DNA from: an uncultured Isoptericola sp. | GTDB taxonomy: Bacteria; Actinomycetota; Actinomycetes; Actinomycetales; Cellulomonadaceae | Assembly (NCBI GenBank): GCA_947497265.1 | Contig: CANMFP010000002.1 | Location: 434,001-498,000 of the forward strand | Direction of reading: 5' to 3' | Length of the DNA: 64,000 nucleotides | Shown here: one piece after another, positions 1 to 6,181 of the stretch | Layout of the letters: each line of letters opens with the position of its first letter | Numbering within the stretch: position 1 is the stretch's first letter | The notes under the pieces: generated by a model | Database searches by the model: none | What the model was told of the DNA's origin: nothing | The model's input: only the letters and a program-made list of their open reading frames with translations | Made by a program: the position numbers and the translations under genes

Positions 1-1210
1 CGAAGACGACGTAGTGGAAGTGCGCCACCACGAAGTAGGTGTCCGAGACGTGGAAGTCCAGCGCGGGGCTCGACAGGATGATGCCCGTCAGGCCACCGAA
101 GAGGAACGTGACGAGGAACCCGATCGACCACAGCATGGGTGTCTCGAACGTCAGCTTGCCGCGCCACATCGTGCCGATCCAGTTGAAGAACTTCACACCG
201 GTCGGGACCGCGATGAGCATCGTCATGAAGGCGAAGAACGGCAGCAGCACGGCACCCGTGACGTACATGTGGTGCGCCCAGACCGTCACCGAGAGCGCGG
301 CGATCGCGATGGTCGCGTAGACGAGGCCCTTGTACCCGAAGATCGGCTTGCGGCTGAACACCGGGAAGATCTCGGAGACGATGCCGAAGAACGGCAGCGC
401 GATGATGTAGACCTCAGGGTGCCCGAAGAACCAGAACAGGTGCTGCCACAGCACCGCTCCCCCGTTGTCGGGGTTGAAGATCTGCGCGTTGAACCGCCGG
501 TCCGCGCCGAGGGCGAAGAGCGCCGAGGCGAGGGGCGGGAACGCCATGAGGATCAGCAGGCTGGTGACCAGCGTGTTCCAGGTGAAGATCGGCATCCGGA
601 ACATCGTCATGCCCGGCGCGCGCATGCAGATCACCGTCGTGATGAAGTTGACGGCACCGAGGATCGTACCGAAACCGGCCAATGCCAGGCCGAAGACCCA
701 GAGGTCTCCTCCCAACCCCGGACTGAACGTCGTGTTCGACAACGGCGCGTAGGCGAACCACCCGAACGACGCCGCACCCTGCGGGGTGAAGAAGCCTGCC
801 GCGGCGATGAGCCCGCCGAACAGGAACAGCCAGTAGGCGAACATGTTCAGGCGCGGGAACGCCACGTCGGGCGCGCCGATCTGCAGCGGCATGATGACGT
901 TCGCGAAGCCCGCGAAGAGCGGTGTCGCGAAGAGCAGCAGCATGATCGTGCCGTGCATCGTGAAGAGCTGGTTGTACTGCTCCTTGCTCTGCACGATCTG
1001 GATGCCGGGCAGGAAGAGCTCGGCGCGGATGAGCAGCGCGAGGATCCCTCCCACGGTGAACCAGAAGAACGACGTGATCAGGTACATGTAGCCGATGGTC
1101 TTGTGGTCGGTGGAGGTGATCCACTTCACGACCGTACGGCCCAGGGTCTGCCGCTCGGAACGGAGGCCGGGAACGACCTCGGCTCCGTACGCGGTCTCTG
1201 TGGTGGCCAT
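1..1210 (-). CDS. ctaD: Cytochrome c oxidase subunit I (3' end cut by window)
   Basis: Catalytic subunit of the aa3-type terminal oxidase, which reduces O2 at the heme-copper centre in the cytoplasmic membrane. The visible 403 codons start [13 protein letters not shown] and include the helix I region with [14 protein letters not shown] and the Cu-B/heme stretch [10 protein letters not shown]; the Tyr cross-link region and the HFHYV haem-ligand segment lie near the window edge. The ATG overlaps the ctaC stop by one base (TGATG), so the two are translationally coupled. The C-terminal part lies outside the window. Identification is secure. Confidence 0.97.
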
Positions 1211-2136
1211 CAGCCCTCGACCTCCGGAGTGGTGTCTTGGTCGGTGAACTCGCCGTGCTGCTGGCGGTTGAGCTCCAGGCCGAGCTCACCGGTCTGTCCC
1301 TTGGCCTCGAGCTCGGCCATCTGTGCGTCGTACTCGGCGCGGTCCACGACCTTGACGTTGAAGAGCATGCCGGAGTGGAACTCTCCGCAGAGCTCGGCGC
1401 ACTTGCCGGCGTAGGTCCCCTCACGCTCGGGCACGACCTGGAAGCTGTTCGACCGCCCCGGGATCATGTCCATCTTGAAGAGGAACGCAGGGATCCAGAA
1501 CGAGTGGATGACGTCACGCGACTCCACGGTGAACTCGACGCGCTCGCCGACGGGCAGGTACAGCGTCGGCAGCGCCTGCGACGTGCCGGGCGCACCGTCG
1601 ATCTCGTCCTCCGCGGTCTGCGAGCCCGGGTCCAGCAGCTGCTGGCCCGACTCGTACACGCCGTCGTCGAGGTAGTTGAAGTCCCAGCTCCACTGCTTGC
1701 CGATGACCTCGATGCTGACGTCGGGCTGCTCGGACGTGGTGTCGACGATGGAGGTCATGTCGCGGTTCGTGTAGACGAACAGCACGAGGACCATGAGCGT
1801 GGGCACGATCGTGTACATGATCTCGAGCGGCATGTGGTAGCGGGTCTGCACCGGCAGGCGGTGGTCGTCGCGACGCTTGCGGTAGGCGGCGACGCACCAC
1901 AGCATCAGCCCCCAGGTGATGACACCGACGGCGAGGGCGGCGACCCAGGATCCGACCCAGAGCTCTGTGATCCGTCCGGTCTGGTTGGTCACCTCCCCGT
2001 CGGTGTAGCCGGGAAGGTATCCACGCTGGGCGGCGTCGCTGGCGCAGCCGGAGGCGAGCGTCGCGACCGCGACGGCGAGAGCCGTCGCACGCAACGCCAG
2101 TGCCCGCCGGGTGCGGGTGGGGCTCTTCGAGTGCAA
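1210..2136 (-). CDS. ctaC: Cytochrome c oxidase subunit II
   Basis: Carries the CuA centre that passes electrons from cytochrome c to CtaD. A TTG start at 2136 is chosen: AAAGG lies 6 nt upstream and it gives a lipoprotein-type signal ending LASGCAS, with Cys lipidation expected. Two transmembrane helices follow (about residues 55-80 and 100-120). The periplasmic cupredoxin domain has the CuA ligands in the stretch [12 protein letters not shown]. Length 308 aa, normal for actinobacteria. It precedes ctaD with a TGATG overlap. A minus-strand -10 candidate (TAGGCT) lies at 2217-2222. Confidence 0.95.
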
Positions 2137-2422: not shown

Positions 2423-3580
2423 GTGACACACCCCACCGCAGGCACCGGCCGGACCCACCTGGACAACGGTGGCCGGGCGCCCTGGCACCCGCTGGCCCGG
2501 ACGGCATTTCTCCAGGCGCTCGACGACGGGTGGGCGGACCCGCGCCGGCTGCACACCGAGGGTCGTCGCGCGGCGGCCCTGCTGGCCGGCGCCCGCGAGG
2601 CCGTGGCCGACGTGCTCGGCGCGCGGACCGAGGAGGTCCGGTTCACCCCGTCGCACACCGCTTCGCTGCACGCCGCCGTCGCACAGGTCGCCCAGGCACG
2701 ACGGCGTCACGGCGGCGACGTCGTCGTCGGTGCGGCGGAGCGGGCCGCGGTCCTGCACGCCGCCGACCACGTGCTGGCCCCCGACGGCCGGCGGGTGACC
2801 GTCCCGGTCGACACCTCCGGACGCGTGGACGTGGACGCCTACGCCACGGCGCTCTCCGCCGGCGGCGTCGCTCTCGCGGCGCTGCAGCACGCCAACGGCG
2901 AGGTCGGCACGACCCAGCCGGTCGAGGCCGTGCACGAGGCCGCCCGGACGGCCGGGGTGCCGCTGCTCGTGGACGCCGGTGCCAGCCTGGGCCACGCGGT
3001 CGTCGGTCCGGCCTGGGACGTGCTCGCCGCCGACCCGGCCGACTGGGGCGCGCCCGCAGGGGTGGGGATCGTCGCCGCACGGCAACGGACCCGCACCGTC
3101 GCCACCGGACCGGAGGACCCCGAGCCGTGGGCGCCCGGGGGCGTGAGCGTCCCTGCCGTCTTCGCGGCCGCCGTCGCGCTCCAGGCGGCCGAGGCGGACC
3201 GCGCGCAGGCCGACGCCCGGCGTCGCGCCCTGGTCGACGAGATCCGCGCACGGGTGGCACTCATCCCGGACGTGGAGGTGGTGGGCGACCCGTCGGAGCG
3301 GCTCCCGCACGTGGTGACGTTCTCGTTCCTGTACGTGGACGGCGAGGCGCTGGTGACCGAGCTGGACCGCGCAGGGTTCGCCGTCGGGTCCGGGTCGGCC
3401 TGCACCGCCAGCACGCTCGAGCCCTCCCACGTCCTCGCGGCGATGGGCGTGCTCACGCACGGCAACGTGCGGATCGCCCTCGACCGCTCGACGACGCGCG
3501 CCGAGGTCGACCGGTTCCTCGACGTCCTGCCGGAGGCCGTGGCCACGGTGCGGGAGATGCTGGGGGTCCAGGGGCTGTGA
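2423..3580 (+). CDS. Cysteine desulfurase-like protein without any lysine
   Basis: A class V aminotransferase-fold protein of 385 aa, close in layout to NifS/IscS. GTG at 2423 is chosen because GAAGGG lies 6 nt upstream. The active-site cysteine loop is intact (GSACTAS around Cys327, then EPSHVL and an MG), and Asn158 and Asp184 match PLP-contact residues. The Schiff-base lysine is not there: the usual HK of the SxHK motif reads Ala206-Asp207 in ADWGAPAGVG, and the whole protein contains no lysine. The PLP-stacking histidine (TEHKA in IscS) reads Arg107 and the following Gln is Ala187. It overlaps the TusA-like gene by 4 bp (GTGA). The fold assignment is firm. Cysteine desulfurase activity is doubtful; a sulfur-relay scaffold is possible. 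Confidence 0.85.
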   Translation: MTHPTAGTGRTHLDNGGRAPWHPLARTAFLQALDDGWADPRRLHTEGRRAAALLAGAREAVADVLGARTEEVRFTPSHTASLHAAVAQVAQARRRHGGDVVVGAAERAAVLHAADHVLAPDGRRVTVPVDTSGRVDVDAYATALSAGGVALAALQHANGEVGTTQPVEAVHEAARTAGVPLLVDAGASLGHAVVGPAWDVLAADPADWGAPAGVGIVAARQRTRTVATGPEDPEPWAPGGVSVPAVFAAAVALQAAEADRAQADARRRALVDEIRARVALIPDVEVVGDPSERLPHVVTFSFLYVDGEALVTELDRAGFAVGSGSACTASTLEPSHVLAAMGVLTHGNVRIALDRSTTRAEVDRFLDVLPEAVATVREMLGVQGL

Positions 3581-3834
3581 GCACGGACGAGGCGTACGAC
3601 GGCCACGTGGTGGACGCTCGAGGGCTGCGCTGCCCGCTCCCGGTGATCCGGCTGGCCGAGCGTTCGAAGGAGCTGCCGCCCGGCACCGAGGTGACCGTCC
3701 TGGCCACCGATCCGGCCGCGCAGCACGACGTTCCCGCCTGGGCCCGCCTGCGGGGCCACGCCGTCACGGGGGCACGCACGCACGAGGCGGACGGTGGACC
3801 CTGGTGGGCCCTGACCGTCCGCCTCGGGGACTGA
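3577..3834 (+). CDS. TusA-family sulfurtransferase-like protein
   Basis: An 85 aa protein of the TusA/SirA/YeeD fold. The hallmark CPxP motif is present (RCPLPVI, Cys19), preceded by the usual D-ARGL stretch. Family members receive persulfide sulfur on this cysteine from a cysteine desulfurase and hand it on. The GTG start overlaps the stop of the desulfurase-like gene (GTGA), which implies coupled translation and a shared role. The C-terminal half is less typical, with WARLRGH instead of the usual helix ending. Substrate unknown. Confidence 0.85.
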   Translation: MSTDEAYDGHVVDARGLRCPLPVIRLAERSKELPPGTEVTVLATDPAAQHDVPAWARLRGHAVTGARTHEADGGPWWALTVRLGD

Positions 3835-3845
3835 CTCTGCCTCCG

Positions 3846-3931
3846 GCTCAGACCGAGTCGTCTCAGCTGAGCCTGCGGTTCCGCTCTGGCTCAGACCGAG
3901 TCATTTCGGCTGAGCCGGCGGTTCCGCTCCG
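3846..3931. repeat. Two tandem 43-bp repeats, each a hairpin
   Basis: Copies at 3846-3888 and 3889-3931 match at 38 of 43 positions. Each contains GGCTCAG and, 15 bp further on, CTGAGCC (3846-3852 with 3868-3874; 3889-3895 with 3911-3917), so each can fold as a stem-loop. They lie between the convergent tusA-like and erpA genes, where a bidirectional terminator is expected. There is no T tract. Confidence 0.75.
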
Positions 3932-3978
3932 GGCGAGCGCCTCGTTCCTCGGCCCTCACCCTGCGCTGCACCTCCGGC

Positions 3979-4329
3979 TCAGCCGAAGGAGCCGCCGCAG
4001 GCGCAGGACTCGCCGGCGTTGGGGTTGTCGATCGTGAAGCCCTGCTTCTCGATGGTGTCGGCGAAGTCGATCTTCGCGCCGTCGAGGTACGGGACGCTCA
4101 TGCGGTCCACGACGACCTCGACGCCGTCGTAGTCGCGCAGCGCGTCCCCGTCGAGCAGGCGCTCGTCGAAGTAGAGCTGGTAGATGAGGCCGGAACAGCC
4201 GCCGGGCTGGACAGCGACGCGCAGACGCAGGTCGTCACGGCCCTCCTGCTCGAGGAGGGTGCGGACCTTGTTCGCGGCGACCTCGGAGAGCTCGACGCCG
4301 TGCGTGGCGATCTCGGTGGTGTCGGTCAT
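3979..4329 (-). CDS. erpA: A-type Fe-S cluster carrier (HesB/IscA family)
   Basis: A 116 aa HesB/IscA-type protein that carries Fe-S clusters to apo-enzymes. The three ligand cysteines are visible: one in QPGGCSGLIY and two in the C-terminal SCACGGSF. Length and order are typical for ErpA. The ATG at 4329 follows GGAGGAAG at good spacing. In actinobacteria this gene sits near nadA and ctaC, as here. LipA and NadA in this window are plausible client enzymes (inference). Confidence 0.93.
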   Translation of the reverse strand: MTDTTEIATHGVELSEVAANKVRTLLEQEGRDDLRLRVAVQPGGCSGLIYQLYFDERLLDGDALRDYDGVEVVVDRMSVPYLDGAKIDFADTIEKQGFTIDNPNAGESCACGGSFG

Positions 4330-4403: not shown

Positions 4404-4931
4404 TCACAGCGTGCCCCAGGACGGCGCCCAGGTGCGAGCCGCGCGTCCCACAGCGGCGACGTCCCACGGCTCGCCCACCTCGTGGACACCCACGACCCCG
4501 GCGGCCGACAGCTCGCGGCGGGACACCTCGGAGCGGCCCGCGAGCACCACGACGGGCACGGCGTACGGTGCCGCCGCACGCGCGGCGTCCGCCGCGGGAC
4601 CCGCGTGCAGCGCCGCGCCGTCGAGCACCCGCACGTGCACCACGACGAGATCCGCCCCGGCCGTGCGCTCCGCGAGCAGCGCGACCTCCGGGGCCACGCG
4701 CGGCGGCCCGACGCTCGACAGCCCGAGCGCCGTCGTCGGCACGAACACCCCGGGCGGCTCGGGCGACTCCCCCGGCCGACCTGGAGGCGGCGGCTCGGCC
4801 GTCGGCAGGACCAAGGGCTCGACGGCGCAGCGGGGCGCGGCGGCGGACCAGGCGGCCGCGAGCGCCGCGGCACCGGCGGCGGGGTCGTCAGGATCAGTGC
4901 CGCCGGACGCGGCGACGATGAGCGCGTGCAC
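4404..4931 (-). CDS. Short glycerate kinase-like protein
   Basis: A 175 aa protein of uncertain function. Its N-terminus (VHALIVAASGG, then a helix ending in AAPRCAVEPLVLPTA) and C-terminus (GADLVVVHVRVLDGAALHAG, then VPVVVLAGR and RRELSAAGV) resemble the first and last parts of GlxK-type glycerate kinases. The full enzyme is about 370 aa, so the middle is missing. The GTG at 4931 is the first start that avoids overlap with nadA; no clear ribosome site is seen. It is divergent from nadA with a 44-bp gap. Possibly a degenerate or repurposed kinase fold. Confidence 0.7.
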   Translation of the reverse strand: MHALIVAASGGTDPDDPAAGAAALAAAWSAAAPRCAVEPLVLPTAEPPPPGRPGESPEPPGVFVPTTALGLSSVGPPRVAPEVALLAERTAGADLVVVHVRVLDGAALHAGPAADAARAAAPYAVPVVVLAGRSEVSRRELSAAGVVGVHEVGEPWDVAAVGRAARTWAPSWGTL

Positions 4932-4975
4932 GGAGCCGATCGTGACACATTCGCGCGTCGTGGGAAGATGGGCGC

Positions 4976-6181
4976 GTGAGCACTCTGCTGAACGAGACGT
5001 CGTCCTTCGTCGAGCCGGCATCGTCCCCGCTGCTCCTGCTCGGGCAGGGGCGCGACCTGGCGTCCGAACGCGGCGTCGAGTGTACCGGCGCCCTCCCGTC
5101 GCCGTCGGACCCGGACCTGGTCGAGCGAGCGCGCGCGGCGCGGGCGGCGCTCGGTGACCGCGCCTTCGTGCTCGGTCACCACTACCAGCGCGACGAGGTC
5201 ATCGACTTCGCGGACGTGACGGGCGACTCGTTCAAGCTCGCACGGTCCGCCGCGGCGCGACCGGAGGCGGAGTTCGTCATCTTCTGCGGCGTGCACTTCA
5301 TGGCGGAGTCCGCGGACATCCTCACGGCGGACACCCAGCAGGTCGTGCTGCCCGACATGGCGGCCGGCTGCTCGATGGCGGACATGGCGGAGATCTCGCA
5401 GGTCGAGGAGGCGTGGGCGGTGCTGGAGGACGCCGGCGTCGCGGCCGACACGATCCCCGTCACCTACATGAACTCCACCGCCGCCATCAAGGCGTTCACG
5501 GGGCGGCACGGGGGCACCGTGTGCACCTCCTCGAACGCCCAGGTGGCGCTGCGCTGGGCCTTCGACAAGGTCGGGGGCGTCGACGGGACCGGCAAGGTCC
5601 TGTTCATGCCCGACCAGCACCTGGGCCGCAACACGGCGGTGCTCCAGCTCGGCATGAGCCTCGACGACTGCGTCGTCTTCGACCCGCGCAAGCCCGGTGG
5701 CGGCCTGACGGCCGCGGAGCTGCGCGACGCCCGGATGATCCTGTGGCGCGGCCACTGCTCGGTGCACGGCCGGTTCTCGGAGCGCAACGTCGCCGACATC
5801 CGGGCCGCGGTGCCGGACGTCAACGTGCTGGTCCACCCGGAGTGCAAGCACGAGGTCGTCAACGCCGCGGACATGGTCGGCTCGACCGAGTTCATCATCA
5901 AGACTCTCGAGAACGCCGAGCCGGGCTCGTCGTGGGCGATCGGCACCGAGCTCAACCTGGTGCGCCGGGTCGCCGCCGCGCACCCGGACAAGCAGGTGCA
6001 CTACCTCGACTCGACGGTCTGCTTCTGCTCGACCATGAACCGCATCGACCTGCCGCACCTCGTCTGGGCGATGGAGTCGCTCGTCGAGGGTCGCGTGGTC
6101 AACCGCATCGTCGTGGACGCCGACGACGCGCACTGGGCCCAGGTGGCCCTCGACCAGATGCTGGCGCTGCCCGGCCTCTGA
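4976..6181 (+). CDS. nadA: Quinolinate synthase
   Basis: Condenses iminoaspartate and dihydroxyacetone phosphate to quinolinate in NAD synthesis; a [4Fe-4S] enzyme. At 401 aa it is a long-type NadA. Visible family blocks are LGHHYQRDEV, FCGVHFMAESADI, GCSMADMA, YMNSTAAIKA, VCTSSNA, HPECKHEV and CFCSTMNRIDL, which supply the cluster cysteines and substrate contacts. Start GTG at 4976, with GAAGAT six bases upstream, suggests a leaderless or near-leaderless transcript. nadB and nadC are not next to it. Confidence 0.96.
   Translation: MSTLLNETSSFVEPASSPLLLLGQGRDLASERGVECTGALPSPSDPDLVERARAARAALGDRAFVLGHHYQRDEVIDFADVTGDSFKLARSAAARPEAEFVIFCGVHFMAESADILTADTQQVVLPDMAAGCSMADMAEISQVEEAWAVLEDAGVAADTIPVTYMNSTAAIKAFTGRHGGTVCTSSNAQVALRWAFDKVGGVDGTGKVLFMPDQHLGRNTAVLQLGMSLDDCVVFDPRKPGGGLTAAELRDARMILWRGHCSVHGRFSERNVADIRAAVPDVNVLVHPECKHEVVNAADMVGSTEFIIKTLENAEPGSSWAIGTELNLVRRVAAAHPDKQVHYLDSTVCFCSTMNRIDLPHLVWAMESLVEGRVVNRIVVDADDAHWAQVALDQMLALPGL

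Follow-up and report, generated by a model that had tools for sequence, protein, structure and literature searches.

What can a protein with the fold of a cysteine desulfurase do once the lysine that should bind its PLP is gone? The question is raised by a gene at 2423–3580 of the window, by which we mean the whole 64,000-nucleotide stretch of DNA from an uncultured Isoptericola sp. that was analysed. A sequence-only reading had proposed that its product has lost desulfurase chemistry but may still carry persulfide on Cys327 and pass it to a TusA-like protein encoded by the overlapping gene.

A NifS/IscS-fold protein without the PLP lysine

The two genes, and the codons that matter most in the first, are as follows:

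2423..3580, + strand: NifS/IscS-fold protein without the PLP lysine, 385 aa, GTG start
2741..2743, + strand: codon of Arg107, at the position of the PLP ring-stacking His (H104)
3041..3043, + strand: codon of Asp207 (GAC), at the Schiff-base position (K206 of E. coli IscS)
3401..3403, + strand: codon of Cys327, at the persulfide-cysteine position (C328)
3470..3472, + strand: codon of Arg350, aligned with R354, the presumed substrate-carboxylate Arg
3577..3834, + strand: TusA-like protein, 85 aa, CPLP motif with Cys19, Asp45 and Asp51; 4-bp overlap with 2423..3580

The true start of the first gene is unsure, and residues 1–7 of the product are modelled at low confidence. The protein matches Aminotran_5 in Pfam (E 7.8e-38) and falls below the NCBIfam cut-offs for IscS, NifS, SufS and DndA, the best being TIGR03402 with 216 bits against 530.75. 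Its AlphaFold2 model (pLDDT 89.2, pTM 0.89) is a confident IscS fold, and Foldseek searches with this model return IscS structures at E about 1e-34 and TM about 0.88, with M. tuberculosis IscS (4isy) as the top match and the E. coli IscS-TusA complex (3lvj) also matched. A promoter and terminator scan found nothing.

Translation and alignment to E. coli IscS bear out the three replacements noted at first sight, K206 corresponding to Asp207, H104 to Arg107 and Q183 to Ala187. S203 is further replaced by Asp204, H205 by Ala206, N155 by Gly159, A75 by His78, and T243, contributed by the other subunit, by Gly240; D180 (Asp184), C328 (Cys327), R354 (Arg350) and T76 (Thr79) are unchanged. The E. coli numbers of the contacts other than K206 and C328, and the role of T243, are those we presume to apply. 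Cys327, Asp184 and Asn158 had all been listed as kept, which is correct for the first two; Asn158 precedes the substrate contact, N155 itself aligning with the changed Gly159. The roles of the PLP-site residues follow passages in papers on DndA, SspA and IscS (PMC3343029, PMC7188994, PMC2854127), and the substrate-carboxylate role of Arg350 is that of its DndA and SspA counterparts in passages of the first two.

Measured against what is expected of a cysteine desulfurase, the window protein has the loop cysteine and the substrate Arg (Cys327, Arg350), has Asp207 for the Schiff-base lysine, and, D180 (Asp184) and Thr79 of the phosphate loop apart, lacks the other PLP contacts (H104, Q183, S203, H205, the phosphate loop and T243 of the other subunit). 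Judged from the residues that have gone, PLP binding has very probably been lost, and with it, therefore, cysteine desulfurase chemistry. The window protein should not be classed as a cysteine desulfurase enzyme.

The protein contains no lysine in its 385 residues, as first reported, and Cys327 is its single cysteine. We rejected the lysine-free composition as a signal in itself, since it is largely a matter of composition: the aligned desulfurase part has no lysine in 73 of the 115 lysine-less loci, and in 20 of the 88 lysine-bearing orthologous loci it has exactly one, which must be that of the site. What stands out is that one site lysine was lost, not the lysine-free composition.

Distribution of the lysine-less orthologues

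At E <= 1e-48, 74 of the 297 genomes of the window's order match, at 75 places, and 223 do not, so the gene looks dispensable in the order at the threshold used. None of the 75 orthologous places has the lysine, which shows that its loss is conserved in the order and excludes a sequencing error. In the main set, the members labelled by handle as belonging to the order comprise 93 distinct lysine-less proteins and no lysine-bearing one. Over all order members so labelled, identical proteins included, the site is occupied by Asp in 67, by Ser in 18, by Thr in 5, by Ala in 4, and by Glu and Gly in 1 each. Loci not so labelled, among them a few from named organisms of the window's order, have the lysine in 88 of 107 cases.

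With identical sequences counted once there are 197 distinct proteins, 85 with the lysine and 112 without; this is a convenience set, to which the order search contributes every one of its 75 places. The loci L106, L159 and L181, all short, were left out of the counts, and a motif rule served to separate off 47 canonical IscS-like loci, L097 being reassigned by hand. The class search matched 144 of 197 genomes, canonical proteins included, and 29 new loci and 40 chosen places were read from it; of the 586 stretches confirmed in the scan of named genomes, the best 80 were kept. All 96 matches of a search in genus g82 were read and are counted apart from the main set.

In the rest of the class this gene, next to ctaC and in most cases also to erpA, generally retains the lysine; these versions mostly read SAHKWGGP at the site, and in Streptomyces they are fused to TusA. 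That a different gene occupies the locus is rejected by the common neighbourhood and the tree. Lysine-bearing homologues in the same neighbourhood had been named as a finding that would count against the reading, and they do occur outside the order, as 85 of the 197 distinct proteins; they point to descent from a lysine-bearing protein and not to activity of the window protein. One scan of viral contigs, made with a phage origin in mind, gave no relative, and a plasmid search returned mainly ctaD among the matches listed.

Apparently repeated loss of the lysine

Trees were built by a quick method with SH-aLRT support only. With the site columns removed, a tree of 92 rows places the 38 lysine-less rows of the order in a single clade (SH-aLRT 96) nested in lysine-bearing relatives. 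This tree has at least seven changes of state, the archaeal L183 accounting for one, and starred branches alone force three, which should include the archaeal one. The lysine has thus apparently been lost several separate times in actinobacteria.

Genus g82 offers a closer view, with matches in 96 of 98 genomes and 7 of the 96 orthologues without the lysine (L267, L287, L290, L293, L338, L344 and L350, the first a 100% match to a gene of the named Nocardioides sp. GY 10113). The replacements are Thr, Gln, two Leu and three Ser, with codons ACC, CAG, CTG, CTG and three times TCG where the lysine codon is AAG or AAA; CAG is one base from AAG, and the single Gln case could therefore be an error. 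The genus tree has at least four changes of state, and its starred branches force two. In the Thr, Gln and two Leu proteins the other contacts checked are as in lysine-bearing kin; the three Ser proteins have changes at the equivalents of the phosphate-loop Gly, Ser203, His205 and T243 as well and retain His104. In all seven the loop cysteine and the counterpart of Arg350 are kept, and TusA is adjacent. The order of events looks like loss of the lysine first and decay of the pocket afterwards.

Conservation and selection

The Cys327 and Arg350 equivalents are each present in all 111 readable distinct lysine-less proteins, and Asp184 in 111 of 112. When 366 alignment columns were ranked by divergence between lysine-bearing proteins and lysine-less order members (33 clustered rows of the former, 38 of the latter), K206 came first, followed among the PLP-site columns by S203 (3), H205 (4), T243 (6), A75 (9), H104 (14), Q183 (18), N155 (22) and T76 (43). 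The C328, R354 and D180 equivalents rank 352–361, D180 being the unchanged cofactor contact. The divergence of the cofactor contacts gives p 2e-6 in a test that ignores phylogeny, and columns unrelated to PLP are also strongly diverged, for example Gly17 at rank 2. To this extent the original interpretation fared well: the loss at the PLP site is conserved and the cofactor columns have diverged, whereas Cys327, Arg350 and Asp184 have not.

Median NG86 dN/dS is 0.179 for 62 lysine-less pairs (range 0.06–0.29) and 0.194 for 297 lysine-bearing pairs (0.12–0.30), the pairs not being independent. Computation supports the lysine-less protein as folded and under purifying selection.

Arg and Asp occur together at positions 107 and 207 in 68 of the 115 lysine-less loci, and His and Ser in 17; that an Arg107-Asp207 salt bridge might fill the PLP site is an idea only, as the pairing follows clades. 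In family f9 (L225-L235, L237) the lysine-less protein is strongly constrained, no TusA was found adjacent, and 8 of 12 loops read GSGSACGK.

The TusA partner

That a TusA-like gene with a CPxP motif overlaps by 4 bp proved accurate. Its product, a one-cysteine protein, matches PF01206 with E 5e-19 (68.3 bits against a cut-off of 28.6), and the window genome has no other PF01206 match at E <= 0.001. Within the order, 67 of 74 genomes with the desulfurase-like gene have some TusA match, against 46 of 223 without it. An adjacent TusA accompanies 81 of 112 distinct lysine-less proteins compared with 80 of 85 lysine-bearing ones; CPxP is retained in 80 of those 81 lysine-less loci, and CPxP together with the Asp45/Asp51 spacing in 82 of 83 loci in each set. 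At locus L212 the lysine-less protein and TusA form a natural fusion. The one lysine-less exception is L252 (genome G369), a second paralogue: its loop is altered to GCGCTC, and the CPxP cysteine is missing from its TusA.

A role wholly dependent on TusA is weakened by the remaining 31 of 112 distinct lysine-less proteins, for which no adjacent TusA was found (no match at E <= 0.01 to the family's own TusA profile within the stretch at hand, one, L034, being cut by a contig end) and in which the cysteine is still kept. Among 15 whole genomes of this kind that were searched, 12 have a TusA-family match elsewhere, and three (G303, G329, G480) have none in the whole genome. The cysteine is kept in these three as well, which argues that it serves something besides TusA there; their lineage is among those with the lowest dN/dS values.

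The E. coli IscS-TusA complex (3lvj), in which a passage of PMC2854127 puts about 4 A between the two sulfurs, resembles the window pair in fold, in the loop cysteine and in Cys19, Asp45 and Asp51 of TusA. It differs in that the window protein lacks the PLP lysine and most cofactor contacts, and in the reported salt bridges to TusA: Glu49, Asp52 and Arg220 of E. coli IscS correspond to Ala52, Ala55 and Gln221, so docking may differ. At the Asp52 position 90 of the 115 lysine-less loci have Asp.

Neighbouring genes

The genes around the pair are largely the same with and without the lysine:

1210..2130, - strand: divergent gene for CtaC, subunit II of the aa3-type cytochrome oxidase; 5′ end limited by the scanned piece
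3979..4329, - strand: ErpA/IscA-type Fe-S carrier
4976..6181, + strand: NadA quinolinate synthase

Among the 40 loci of at least 8 kb, CtaC is present in all (27 of 27 with the lysine, 13 of 13 without), ErpA lies near the gene in 35 (22 of 27 and 13 of 13), and NadA lies within the stretch in 17 (9 of 27 and 8 of 13), the stretch often ending before the NadA position. Eight neighbours scanned with Pfam include no IscU or SufU.

At 3841-3987, between the convergent genes tusA and erpA, lie a pair of direct repeats of 43 bp (88% alike) and an inverted repeat of 37 bp (81% complementary), which may act as a terminator in both directions or belong to an intergenic repeat element. Between erpA and nadA, 4404-5021 on the minus strand encodes a 205-aa protein without lysine that matches Glycerate kinase weakly (18.8 bits, under the cut-off) and recurs in L036 and L117.

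Relation to known systems

Fold, cysteine and arginine are common to the window protein and canonical NifS, IscS, DndA and SspA, from which it differs by loss of the Lys, His, Ser, Gln and Asn contacts. The closest counterparts with an intact site are the same-locus actinobacterial orthologues (L047, and L123 in Streptomyces), which are 54–55% identical, have TusA fused or adjacent and, unlike the window protein, retain SAHKWGGP and the PLP pocket.

By sequence, the top PDB matches are to Archaeoglobus fulgidus IscS (4eb5, 4eb7, 4hvk and the D199K variant 4r5f), in which, by the title of the 4r5f entry, the Asp in place of lysine is residue 199. A passage of PMC7585200, which cites Marinoni 2012, Yamanaka 2013 and Pagnier 2014, reports this protein as inactive as a desulfurase and as lending a cysteine ligand to the IscU cluster; Methanosarcina acetivorans IscS1 is said there likewise to be without the lysine. 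A. fulgidus IscS and the window protein are alike in the IscS fold, in Asp for Lys and in the kept cysteine. They differ at the R354 equivalent, which is Leu in A. fulgidus and the retained Arg350 in the window family, and in partner, IscU being the known one there and TusA, as known from the genes, the one here.

Two metagenome-assembled genomes, of an unplaced bacterium (L182) and an ANME-2 archaeon (L183), encode IscS-like proteins that resemble A. fulgidus IscS; the PLP lysine is replaced by Gln or Asp, and the substrate Arg by Val in L182 and by Leu in L183. The archaeal L183 retains the ring-stacking His that the window protein has lost.

Among the matches listed in a search of titles and abstract starts of the open-licence literature, no paper is evidently on the actinobacterial lysine-less family. 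The window family is a lysine-less variant of a known fold with archaeal precedent; it is real, conserved and apparently recurrent.

Role of the lysine-less protein

A sulfur relay appears the likeliest role of the window protein. On the evidence taken together, we judge it somewhat more probable than not that a desulfurase has turned into a PLP-free pseudoenzyme whose Cys327 handles persulfide as a relay or scaffold, mostly for TusA. The ancestor would have been a NifS/IscS-type cysteine desulfurase paired with TusA, and Cys327 would have been retained because it holds persulfide sulfur or hands it on. The operon, the natural fusion and the retained motif suggest that, where TusA is still present, transfer would be mainly to its Cys19. 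The sulfur might come, at a guess, from the genome's lysine-bearing desulfurase-like proteins, for which the window genome has separate genes (IscS-like L031 and SufS-like L254), or from a low-molecular-weight persulfide.

Asp184, a cofactor contact, and Arg350 are conserved, so a cofactor or substrate could still bind. The emptied pocket might act as a PLP-free persulfide transferase, with Arg350 and Asp184 binding a carboxylate-bearing small persulfide, cysteine persulfide being a candidate, and sulfur moving to Cys327 and on to TusA. This is suggested by the Arg350 kept here and absent in A. fulgidus IscS, L182 and L183, and we regard it as unlikely. The arginine could equally activate the cysteine, as a passage of PMC3343029 suggests for Arg353 of DndA.

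Of similarly low probability is a part in Fe-S assembly with no sulfur transfer, Cys327 serving as a cluster ligand for a U-type scaffold or the protein helping ErpA or NadA. A. fulgidus IscS, with its lysine replaced by Asp and its inactivity as described in a passage of PMC7585200 (structures 4eb5, 4hvk, 4r5f), is a precedent, ErpA is a regular neighbour, and the cysteine is kept where no TusA was found. Against this, the overlapping gene encodes a one-cysteine TusA, even fused at L212, and the archaeal and archaeal-like lysine-less proteins compared (A. fulgidus IscS, L182 and L183) are without the R354-equivalent Arg that is retained here.

That PLP is still bound non-covalently, in a slow or altered PLP enzyme, we consider improbable. 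The conserved Asp184 (the pyridine N1 partner) and Arg350, and the four g82 proteins in which the lysine is gone with the other contacts as in lysine-bearing kin, are consistent with such binding, but the equivalents of the phosphate-loop Gly, ring-stacking His, Ser203 and His205 are replaced in most order members. It is quite improbable that the protein regulates, or forms a heterodimer with, a lysine-bearing desulfurase of its own cell, or that it serves as a decoy holding TusA: the genome does encode L031 and L254, but identity to L031 is only about 35% and both lie on other contigs. A decaying relic en route to loss would fit the 223 of 297 order genomes without a match and the altered L252 and its TusA, and is nevertheless scarcely credible given that dN/dS among lysine-less pairs is not above that of lysine-bearing pairs and that the cysteine and arginine are fixed in 111 of 111 readable proteins.

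Cysteine desulfurases are defined by lysine-bound PLP, and all orthologues found in one order are without that lysine. Several other lineages are apparently lysine-less too, under similar selection and with the sulfur-carrying cysteine and usually TusA intact, so automatic annotation as cysteine desulfurase is unsafe for this family. Genus g82 provides natural stages, with the lysine alone lost from an intact pocket and with pocket decay, and the matched orthologues make the function of an IscS fold without its cofactor testable. If the PLP-free transferase proved true, PLP chemistry would be dispensable in an IscS-fold protein, and the step would have arisen repeatedly in actinobacteria, from the loss of one lysine.
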